Positions 309 through 36,898 of a DNA stretch of 37,523 nucleotides are shown in pieces. The position numbers and the translations under genes are program-made. Below the pieces are notes generated by a model. The model was not told where the DNA came from. It saw nothing but the letters and a program-made list of their open reading frames with translations, and searched no databases. The DNA comes from Acetobacteraceae bacterium (GTDB lineage: Bacteria; Pseudomonadota; Alphaproteobacteria; Acetobacterales; Acetobacteraceae), in NCBI GenBank assembly GCA_027483995.1, contig JAIXTK010000429.1:1-37523 (forward strand), in the 5' to 3' direction. The number at the start of each line of letters is the position of its first letter. The stretch's first letter is position 1.

Positions 309-310
309 AG

Positions 311-428
311 CAAGGAAGCGGTTCTTTTTTGAAAAAAGAACCAAAAAACTTTCATTCGTTTGCGCCGGGGCTTGCCTCGGCGCAAACGGGTGACGTCTGG
401 TTTGCTTGAGGAACGAGACGAGTCTTTA
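311..428 (+). repeat. Composite palindromic intergenic repeat, copy A (right end degenerate)
   Basis: GGTTCTTTTTTGAAAAAAGAACC palindrome (320-342), AAAAAACTTT, then inner perfect 11-bp stem CGTTTGCGCCG/CGGCGCAAACG (357-388), then degraded right module GTCTGGTTTGCTT...GAGTCTTTACTT. Related to copies at 1962, 33392 and 36774. Confidence 0.8.
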
Positions 429-1961: not shown

Positions 1962-2097
1962 CAAGAAACTGCGTTCTTTTTTGAAAAAAAGAACCAAAAA
2001 ACGTTTGGAACTTTGGTCCCGGGTGTTTGAACCGCCTCGGCCCAATGTCCAAAAGTCTTTTTGCTTCTTTTTCTTCAGAAAAAGAAGAGTCTTCCTT
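1962..2097 (+). repeat. Composite palindromic intergenic repeat, copy B
   Basis: Left palindrome GTTCTTTTTTGAAAAAAAGAAC (1973-1994) + CAAAAAAC; right palindrome CTTCTTTTTCTTCAGAAAAAGAAG (2064-2087) preceded by AAAGTCTTTTTG. Inner hairpin weak in this copy. Confidence 0.85.
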
Positions 2098-32731: not shown

Positions 32732-33391
32732 ATGGATGCGAAGCCTCAAGCCAAGGGCTGGGACCGTCTGCAGATGGCCGAACGGGCCGCCCAGGACATC
32801 CCCGAAGGCTGGTACGTCAACCTCGGCATCGGAATGCCCACCGGCATCGCCGACTACGTGCCGCTCGACCGCGAAGTGGTCTTTCACTCCGAAAATGGCG
32901 TTCTCGGCATGGGCCCCAAGCCCCCCGAAGACCAGCGCGACCCCTGGCTGATCAACGCCGGCAAGCAGCACGTTACCCTGCGCAAGGGCGGCAGCTTCGT
33001 CCACCACGCCGACAGCTTCGCCATGATCCGCGGCGGCCATCTCGATCTCTGCGTCCTCGGCGCCTTCGAAGTGGCCGAGAACGGTGACATCGCCAACTGG
33101 GCCACCAGTGAGAACGATGCCGCGCCGGCCGTCGGCGGCGCCATGGACCTCGCCGCGGGCGCCAAGCGCCTGTGGGTCATCATGGACCACAGCACCAAGT
33201 CCGGCGGCAAGAAGCTGGTCAAGAAGTGCACCTACCCGCTCACGGCCCTCGGCGCCGTGAAGCGCGTCATCACCAATCTCGGCGTCTTCGATGTCACCGA
33301 GCGCGGCTTCGTCGTCGTGGAACTCGCCCCGGGCGTCACGCTGGACCAGGTCCGCGCCCAGTCCGAGGCCGAGATCCATACCCAAGGCTAA
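32732..33391 (+). CDS. pcaJ: 3-oxoadipate CoA-transferase subunit B (3-oxoacid CoA-transferase family)
   Basis: 'VNLGIGMPTGIADYVPLDREVVFHSENGVLGMGPKP...GGHLDLCVLGAFEVAENGDIANW'. Confidence 0.85.
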   Translation: MDAKPQAKGWDRLQMAERAAQDIPEGWYVNLGIGMPTGIADYVPLDREVVFHSENGVLGMGPKPPEDQRDPWLINAGKQHVTLRKGGSFVHHADSFAMIRGGHLDLCVLGAFEVAENGDIANWATSENDAAPAVGGAMDLAAGAKRLWVIMDHSTKSGGKKLVKKCTYPLTALGAVKRVITNLGVFDVTERGFVVVELAPGVTLDQVRAQSEAEIHTQG

Positions 33392-33528
33392 AGCAAGCGG
33401 TTCTTTTTTGAAAAAAAGAACCAAAAAACTTTTTTGACTTTGCACCGAGCGCCCACACCGGGCCTCGGTGTAAATTCATAAAGTCTTTTTGCTTCTTTTT
33501 CTTCAGAAAAAGAAGACTCTACCTTACT
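33392..33528 (+). repeat. Composite palindromic intergenic repeat, copy C (most complete)
   Basis: Left GGTTCTTTTTTGAAAAAAAGAACC (33399-33422) + AAAAAACTTTTTTGACTTT; inner TTTGCACCGAG/CTCGGTGTAAA (33439-33474); AAAGTCTTTTTG + right CTTCTTTTTCTTCAGAAAAAGAAG (33492-33515). Confidence 0.9.
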
Positions 33529-34611: not shown

Positions 34612-34635
34612 TGCAGTCGGCCTCTGGGCAAGTAA

Positions 34636-34830
34636 GACCAGGGGCTTTGCCCCTGGACCCCACCAGGGACCTGAGGTCCCTGGACCCACATGTGTTCCGC
34701 CTTCGGCGGGGAGGGGCCATCCGGGTCTCTCCACCACCCAGACGGCCCCTCCCCGCCGAAGGCGGAAAAGGTAAAGGGGTCTGGGGCCTAAGGCCCCAGC
34801 GGGTCCAGGGCAGAGCCCTGGCCTTTCTTA
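34636..34830. repeat. Dyad-symmetric five-hairpin intergenic element
   Basis: CCAGGGGCTTTGCCCCTGG (34638-34656); CCAGGGACCTGAGGTCCCTGG (34663-34683); central perfect 22-bp IR CCGCCTTCGGCGGGGAGGGGCC (34697-34718)/GGCCCCTCCCCGCCGAAGGCGG (34744-34765); CTGGGGCCTAAGGCCCCAG (34781-34799); CCAGGGCAGAGCCCTGG (34805-34821). Confidence 0.92.
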
Positions 34831-34846
34831 ATCAGGAGCCCACCGC

Positions 34847-35609: not shown

Positions 35610-36779
35610 ATGACCGCCGTCACCCCGCACCAGCCCGAAGACCTCAACCATCTGTCGGACGACGCCTTCCGCCAGCACATCCGCCAATGGATCGAGGCCA
35701 ACTACCCGCCGGAGCTCCGCAATCCCCCGAAGCGCCTGCACTGGTCCGAAAACCAGGTCTGGTACTTCAAGCTGGCGGAACAGGGCTGGCTCTGCCCCTC
35801 CTGGCCCCGCGAGCACGGCGGCATGGGCCTCTCGGCCGGCAAGCAGATCATCATGGTCGAGGAGTACGAGCGCCACGGCGTCGCCCGCACCAACGACCAC
35901 GGCATCCTCATGGTCGGCCCACTGCTCATCGCCCACGGCACGCAGGACCAGCGCGACTTCTTCCTGCCCAAGATCCTCGCCGGCGAGCATATCTGGTGCC
36001 AGGGCTACAGCGAGCCCAACGCCGGCTCCGACCTCGCCTCCCTGCGCACCGAAGCCGTGGCCGATGGCGACGACTGGATCATCAACGGCTCCAAGATCTG
36101 GACCACCCTGGCCAACGACGCCAACTGGATCTTCCTCCTCGTCCGCACCGACAAGAACGCCAAGAAGCAGGAAGGCATCACCTTCCTCCTCGTCCCCATG
36201 GACACGCCCGGCATCACCGTCCGCCCGATCTGGACGATCGACCTGCACGATGAGTTCTGCGAGGTCTTCTTCGACAACGTCCGCGTCCCCCAGAAATGGA
36301 CCGTCGGCGCCGTCAACCAGGGCTGGACCATGGCCAAGGCCCTGCTGGGCCACGAACGCATCTATCTCGGCTCGGCCAAGCTCTCCCAATACGCGCTCGA
36401 CCGCCTGAAAACCCTGGCCGACCGCATGGGCGTCGCCGAAGACCCCGATTTCATCGACCGCTACACCCGCCTCAAGCTGGAAATCGCCGACCTCAAGAGC
36501 CTTCACGCCACCTACGTGGACGTCGTCCGCCGCGGCGAGGAACTCGGGCCGGATGTCTCCATGCTCAAGGTCATCCAGACCGAGCTGTTCCAGAAGATCA
36601 CCGACACCATGATGGAAGTCGCCGGCGAGAACGCCGCCCTGCTGGAACCCATGGAAGGCAACCGGGAACTGAACCCATCCGGCCTGTTCCTCCAGGCACG
36701 GCCGTCCACCATCTATGGCGGCAGCAACGAGATCCAGCGCAATATCCTGGCCAAGAACGTGCTCAGGCTACCAGGGTAG
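35610..36779 (+). CDS. Acyl-CoA dehydrogenase (large-subunit-like, 389 aa)
   Basis: 'WCQGYSEPNAGSDLASLRTEAV', 'NGSKIWTTLANDANWIFLLVRTD', 'GGSNEIQRNILAKNVLRLPG'. Confidence 0.93.
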   Translation: MTAVTPHQPEDLNHLSDDAFRQHIRQWIEANYPPELRNPPKRLHWSENQVWYFKLAEQGWLCPSWPREHGGMGLSAGKQIIMVEEYERHGVARTNDHGILMVGPLLIAHGTQDQRDFFLPKILAGEHIWCQGYSEPNAGSDLASLRTEAVADGDDWIINGSKIWTTLANDANWIFLLVRTDKNAKKQEGITFLLVPMDTPGITVRPIWTIDLHDEFCEVFFDNVRVPQKWTVGAVNQGWTMAKALLGHERIYLGSAKLSQYALDRLKTLADRMGVAEDPDFIDRYTRLKLEIADLKSLHATYVDVVRRGEELGPDVSMLKVIQTELFQKITDTMMEVAGENAALLEPMEGNRELNPSGLFLQARPSTIYGGSNEIQRNILAKNVLRLPG

Positions 36780-36898
36780 GATTCTTCTTTTTTCTGGAGA
36801 AAAAAGAAGCAAAAAAGACTTCATTCGTTTGCGGCGGGAAGGCCCGTTCTTCCTCGCCGCAAACGAAGAACGGGTTCTTTAGAACAGAACCGCTTCCT
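36774..36898 (-). repeat. Composite palindromic intergenic repeat, copy D (inverted orientation)
   Basis: CTTCTTTTTTCTGGAGAAAAAAGAAG (36784-36809) + CAAAAAAGACTTCATTCG; inner perfect 13-bp stem TTCGTTTGCGGCG/CGCCGCAAACGAA; degenerate left module GGTTCTTTAGAACAGAACC, reverse complement of the left module of A-C. Confidence 0.85.

Follow-up and report, generated by a model that had tools for sequence, protein, structure and literature searches.

Small interspersed palindromic repeats are a known kind of element, and what is unusual in the family described here is its tie to stop codons. Among Alphaproteobacteria, RIME and the rhizobial mosaic elements are intergenic palindromic mosaics, a description that also suits this family. 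REPs carrying a GTAG tag often provide the stop codon of flanking ORFs, and CGTC repeats are reported as absent from Acetobacteraceae (PMC3733652). In E. coli, REPs located within 15 nt of a stop codon are associated with ribosome stalling, according to work cited in PMC12306157. SPRITE is a single 18-bp duplex with a U-rich tract and AAAA/TTTT ends (PMC3049150). The RepRanger survey places Lichenicola cladoniae, a member of Acetobacteraceae, among the high-REP genomes, and these REPs may be the A/T-arm family presented below, for which no earlier description in Acetobacteraceae was found in the open-access literature.

The window, i.e., the whole stretch of 37,523 nucleotides analysed here, carries four copies of this family, named A to D. 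With a probability of roughly 0.6, the family is a small dispersed, probably non-autonomous mobile element of Acetobacteraceae that resides at gene 3' ends and has the anatomy of a bidirectional terminator.

Element Architecture

The unit consists of two inverted A/T-rich hairpin arms around a GC-rich hairpin and covers ~125 bases, or ~120-145 bp when the tails are included. Two of the copies, B (1972-2097) and C (33392-33528), have all parts and read as a tail, the left palindrome GGTTCTTTTTTGAAAAAAAGAACC, AAAAAACT, the inner hairpin, AGTCTTTTTG, the right palindrome, and a tail. The first-pass annotation had attributed this fixed architecture to all four copies, which holds for B and C, whereas A is devoid of the right palindrome and the left arm of D has decayed. 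The paired inner stem that it described in A, C, and D is indeed well paired in these three copies, and weakly in B. The features are as follows.

309..428 (+), partial copy A, with tail AGCAAGGAAGCG, left arm at 320-350, and inner hairpin CGTTTGCGCCG..CGGCGCAAACG, without right arm
1973..2003 (+), left arm of copy B, L type
2004..2053 (+), inner region of copy B, weak pairing
2054..2087 (+), right arm of copy B, R type, AGTCTTTTTGCTTCTTTTTCTTCAGAAAAAGAAG
33389..33391 (+), TAA stop ending the CoA-transferase subunit B-like gene upstream, immediately before the left tail of copy C
33392..33399 (+), left tail of copy C, AGCAAGCG, GNAA kind
33400..33430 (+), left arm of copy C, L type
33431..33481 (+), inner GC hairpin of copy C
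33482..33515 (+), right arm of copy C, R type
33516..33528 (+), right tail of copy C, ACTCTACCTTACT, CTTN kind
36774-36898 (-), whole of copy D, inverted
36784..36820 (-), right arm of copy D, six-T variant with one additional A/T pair, TTTTTTCTCCAGAAAAAA
36821..36872 (-), inner GC hairpin of copy D
36873..36891 (-), decayed left arm of copy D, GGTTCTGTTCTAAAGAACC

Written outward, the R arm is AGTCTTTTTG-CTTCTTTTTC-TTCA-GAAAAAGAAG, the R' arm AGTTTTTTTG-CTTCTTTTTG-TTCA-CAAAAAGAAG, and the L arm AGTTTTTTG-GTTCTTTTT-TTCA-AAAAAGAAC, the fourth arm type being the six-T variant of R. By eye, the TTCA loop is constant across arm types while the closing and basal pairs exchange as pairs (C-G to G-C), so that conservation seems to bear on the hairpin as such. 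The A/T arms are nearly invariant, even across genera, and the outer palindromes, previously proposed as an additional layer, are supported as an extra conserved one. As RNA, the + strand of the element is computed to fold into three hairpins.

The inner region has a median length of 50 nt and a mean identity between copies of 56%. Its true halves fold at -22.0 kcal/mol versus -14.2 kcal/mol when halves are exchanged between copies; 62% of the inner regions fold at z < -2, and about a fifth fold no better than shuffles. Inner stems are genus-specific, as with GGCGTCCCGC..GCGGGACGCC in the genus of genome G333 and in Pseudoroseomonas cervicalis, while the arms are common to genera.

Some copies have a composite structure. 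Orphan R arms in L129, L133, L181, and L130 are attached to a different left half with GGCGGGTCCGCTTCGCGACCCGCC hairpins and constitute chimeric elements. A widespread GGATTGCTTCGCTGCGCTCGCAATGAC repeat is nested in or beside elements in L158 near 15182, L136 near 16300, and L134 near 12025.

Copy Number and Host Range

The genome-wide family predicted by the first-pass annotation, a claim that few other copies would have undermined, is clearly borne out. Indeed, the right-arm core AGTCTTTTTGCTTCTTTTT, allowing at most two mismatches, is found 109 times on the + strand and 112 times on the - strand of the whole draft genome of the window (G000; 5.02 Mb, 501 contigs, 89% complete), giving 221 matches, well above chance, versus 0 for the control, which is the same pattern reversed. 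To judge from its closest named relatives, this genome belongs to an Acetobacteraceae bacterium. Annotation of 0.97 Mb of contigs selected for carrying arms yielded 40 orphan arms and 99 paired elements, the latter comprising 78 L..R, 15 with L and a six-T right arm, 3 R..R', 2 L..R', and 1 R'..R'.

The arm is present in 98 of 398 Acetobacteraceae genomes, distributed over 34 of 102 genera. Genomes of the window's genus contain ~200-500 arm matches each, with a maximum of 500 in one genome. Outside Acetobacteraceae, two single matches only were obtained in a 290-genome sample of Alphaproteobacteria. The family is confined to Acetobacteraceae, and horizontal spread beyond it was rejected with no multi-copy carrier among 286 other Alphaproteobacteria. 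Phages were also rejected as carriers, the one match, 37 bp long and located in a cattle-blood Microviridae record, being probably due to chance or contamination. Fifteen IMG/VR contig stretches (L332-L346) contain the exact right arm, some in two or three copies, and are probably proviral or flanks from Acetobacteraceae hosts. The Rfam 15 covariance models gave 0 matches in the window at the gathering score.

Placement at Stop Codons

Elements are located directly behind genes. According to our GC-frame ORF calls, which are uncurated and drawn from draft genomes, the hairpin lies at most 15 nt from the upstream stop in 29 of 32 tandem gene pairs, and in 18 of 20 convergent pairs the element directly adjoins the stops on either side. 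An open-frame test led to the same picture: a long coding frame with its stop at -14 to +18 nt adjoins 178 of the 227 arm sides, versus 235 of 3000 random positions, and for 34 of these 178 the stop is within the arm itself. In another genus, 29 of 49 arm sides behave in this way. The annotated P. cervicalis plasmids NZ_CP115853 and NZ_CP115852 display the same stop-codon placement, and on NZ_CP115853 two convergent stops are separated by a gap that the element occupies in full. In the window, copy A is found between two convergent genes. At copy D, the upstream + strand gene ends with TAG at 36777-36779, and the minus-strand gene runs through the tail and stops at a TAA within it.

Among element-adjacent stops, TAA accounts for 61 of 87 (70%) versus 90 of 592 elsewhere (15%). 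Since TAAG is one tail unit (NAAG with N = T), the 3' end of many genes is probably derived from an element.

Distances from stop to hairpin cluster at 4, 8, and 10-12 nt. These clusters, the TAA excess, and the stalling attributed to E. coli REPs are the features expected if the elements exert translational control, where a hairpin 3-15 nt past the stop would stall the terminating ribosome or protect the mRNA 3' end, and the TAA bias would compensate with a strong stop. Translational effects are thus conceivable for A/T-arm elements in view of the E. coli report. As an explanation of the family, this control is nevertheless rather unlikely, as TAAG is a plain tail unit and the TAA bias is possibly a by-product of the joining of element and gene.

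Possible Terminator Function

A bidirectional terminator core had been deduced from the order of A-tract, GC stem, and T-tract. The layout stands, and the GC hairpin followed by a T-tract, a feature of intrinsic terminators, is present in sequence and fold, but the placement statistics do not support a simple terminator role. It could be proposed that the elements are dedicated bidirectional intrinsic terminators of the host, the family owing its maintenance and spread to selection for stopping the transcription of neighbouring genes. This is a reading that we take seriously while doubting it. It accounts for the tract order, for an inner stem that keeps its structure, for the outer hairpins followed by T-rich tails that score as terminator-like, and for the near-absence of the elements from divergent (5'-5') gaps, where 3 of 55 placements are found versus 18% expected. 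However, the convergent share of placements is 0.38 versus 0.35 under a random-stop-codon model (p = 0.66), hence without enrichment. Tight tandem gene pairs host 19 of 32 element placements (59%) versus 178 of 305 in the background (p = 1.0), and the fact that they are not avoided weakens a dedicated strong-terminator role, as a strong terminator there cuts off the next gene. Copy C, followed 25 nt downstream by the ACAD start codon, exemplifies the problem. Moreover, a simple terminator scan identified 9 terminators versus 8.5 expected from shuffles and picked the arms rather than the GC core. Divergent gaps are the sole ones avoided. Placement statistics thus argue against strong selection for termination, and the preferred reading is that of a mobile element whose presence behind stops is tolerated and whose effects on termination or on 3' ends are partial.

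Evolution at Orthologous Sites

Between sister genomes, orthologous copies have arms 97-100% identical, flanks 82-94% identical, and inner stems 67-90% identical, these ranges excluding G212 and G275, in which arms have deletions, and G171, with two comparable sites only. The inner hairpin of copy C differs in sequence at the same site in sister genomes and retains its pairing. At L122:16361, the entire inner stem is swapped between genomes, with arms and neighbours unchanged.

In alignable orthologous inner stems, the correct register shows 28 double changes, with pairing retained in 16, whereas shifted registers give 12-17 and 5-9, respectively; one-sided pair breaks number 34 in the correct register versus 64-82 when shifted. 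As orthologue pairs are not independent, these counts constitute moderate evidence that inner-stem pairing is under selection. The selection on inner-stem structure suggested at first sight is supported by both the comparison of true and swapped halves and these joint in-register changes.

Mobility

The elements are mobile, with gains (and losses) at orthologous sites. Element C is present in genomes G000, G033, G275, G212, G171, and G245, and absent from G399 and G119. The two latter each contain one private copy at a site that is empty in the other genomes compared. The private copy of G119, the clearest case of a new insertion, is inserted at TTCTA^ACCC, yielding TTCTAGGAAGC...CTTCCACCC; the empty relative G245 reads TTCTAACCCTTCCCACAGGAG, and the occupied site TTCTAGGAAGCAAGCATG...TTCTTCCTTCCACCCTTCC. 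Comparison of both sequences indicates that the tails arrived with the element and that the entry point is within the stop codon. In empty/occupied alignments, of which TTCTA^ACCC is the best case, a clear target-site duplication was not apparent. An empty site may in some instances reflect a loss rather than a gain, as for L122:16361, where G212 is without a copy that is found in more distant relatives. At the L122:15080 site, G275 (L247) displays a fused remnant of both arms, as expected from deletion between inverted repeats.

The elements could be proposed to belong to the REPIN/BIME family moved by a RAYT (Y1 HUH) transposase, as the inverted palindrome pair, structured spacer, many extragenic copies, and ability to provide a stop are all reported for REPs (PMC3733652). 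This identity is nonetheless very improbable. The Y1_Tnp domain (PF01797) occurs in just 6 of 25 element-rich genomes, being missing from the richest, G119, G298, and G171, which led to the rejection of RAYT as the mobiliser. RAYT genes are usually flanked by their repeat. Around the Y1_Tnp gene of G000, arms are absent over ~1 kb, and an L arm is found only in locus L279. The element flanks do not contain a GTAG or CGTC tag, the junctions carrying (GNAA)n tails instead.

Arms are found in two places around a gene-sized insert splitting the inner stem, namely L162:2910-3578 (a GNAT-like gene, 604 bp) and L136:16194-17007 (752 bp). Such inserts, combined with constant ends and a variable middle, recall the integron attC-like recombination sites that bound gene cassettes. 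Yet nearly all copies are gene-free, arrays are absent, and visual inspection revealed no attC boxes, so that this identity appears the most remote of those considered. These two being the sole gene-sized inserts, and neither an obvious transposase by eye, an autonomous copy with a transposase between its arms was rejected for the 0.97 Mb of the window's genome that was read, in which no related transposon was seen either. No mobilising enzyme was found.

Tails and Other Repeat Families

Outside the arms, elements are bordered by (GNAA)n tails on the left and (CTTN)n tails on the right, with at least two units in 110 of 164 flanks versus 1 of 840 random positions. The variable base N does not co-vary between left and right tails (19 of 73 equal), contrary to what pairing of the tails would predict. 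In other genera, the tails are purine/pyrimidine-rich and less regular.

These tails are also found on other repeats. In intergenic DNA of the window's genome, 107 of 118 (GNAA)2G runs are joined to one of four palindromic repeat families, as assigned by a simple motif. The second family, F2, is unrelated in sequence to the A/T-arm family (F1) and displays the same hairpin-stem-hairpin layout.

34627..34833 (+), F2 copy (also delimited as 34633-34825)

It comprises a GCAAGTAAG tail, a CCAGGGGC..GCCCCTGG hairpin, a central GC stem TCCGCCTTCGGCGG, a CCAGGGC..GCCCTGG hairpin, and a CTTTCTT tail. In G399 and G119, the orthologous junction is free of F2, which occurs in dozens of copies in sister genomes. 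In both F1 and F2, the outward hairpin with its tail scores as terminator-like, so that the tails may serve as U-tracts, represent a mark of insertion, or combine the two. A third kind of repeat, CACAGAGAGCACAGAGG.. with tails GGCAAAGGGAAGC / CTTCGCTTCCT, occupies the intergenic site orthologous to L262:8337-8454 (also in L257 and L259). G171 carries an A/T-arm element in the same gap instead, which points to independent insertions of different families.

Tails common to unrelated families point to a shared insertion mechanism. Tentatively, a non-RAYT insertion system might place several unrelated palindromic families exactly at Acetobacteraceae stops, leaving or requiring (GNAA)n/(CTTN)n tails, which would run on from the coding frame and provide its TAA, and exchanging the inner hairpin while keeping the ends. 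The first-pass annotation included neither the proximity to stop codons and the TAA excess, nor the tails, the empty sites, and the F2 family that bears these tails in the window.

Proposed Mechanism and Implications

For a mobile element at gene 3' ends, the following scheme can be proposed. Copies would insert at, or survive solely at, gene 3' ends, where the terminal tails could provide an in-frame stop (TAAG). Most likely, the mobilising system recognises the outer arms as ends, and these arms, with the U-rich tail behind each of them, would double as hairpins of terminator-like character. Once transcribed, a copy would fold into three hairpins, with a core of A-tract, GC stem, and T-tract readable on either strand. 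The element could then serve as a bidirectional 3'-end element, acting as a partial intrinsic terminator, an activity suggested by its layout, and as a 3' mRNA cap.

The family looks like a selfish repeat settled just past the stop codon, the one location where compact operons can receive an insertion without harm. In each genome, hundreds of genes may have had their stop codons and 3' ends rewritten by it. Identical gene pairs that carry or lack the element, or carry it with differing inner hairpins, in genomes 93-96% identical, offer a natural experiment that makes the role of dispersed palindromes testable, be it termination, mRNA stability, ribosome release, or nothing.

Comparison with Known Systems

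The family is REP-like in a broad sense, its numerous extragenic palindromic copies sharing one consensus. As in REP/BIME/REPIN systems, it includes hundreds of short extragenic palindromes in inverted pairs, with structured variable spacers and termini able to give stops (PMC3733652). It differs from them by its A/T-rich arms, the lack of a GTAG/CGTC tag, its (GNAA)n tails, its three-hairpin unit, and the absence of RAYT from most carriers. With MITEs, it shares a small non-coding body, insertion polymorphism, and inverted termini, here formed by the arms and the GNAA/CTTN tails, whereas no parent transposon was found in the 0.97 Mb read, no clear target-site duplication was apparent in the alignments, and the ends are constant around a variable centre. 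SPRITE is likewise dispersed, AT-rich, terminator-like, and enriched at CDS 3' ends (PMC3049150); the present family is distinguished by three hairpins, a family-wide host range, and clear empty sites, no comparable one having been found for SPRITE. Finally, inverted DNA uptake sequences of Neisseria and Pasteurellaceae are also dispersed repeats making terminator hairpins at gene ends (PMC1852404). Uptake signals are ~10-nt words, generally in at least 1000 copies, whereas the elements described here are ~125 bp long and show insertion polymorphism.
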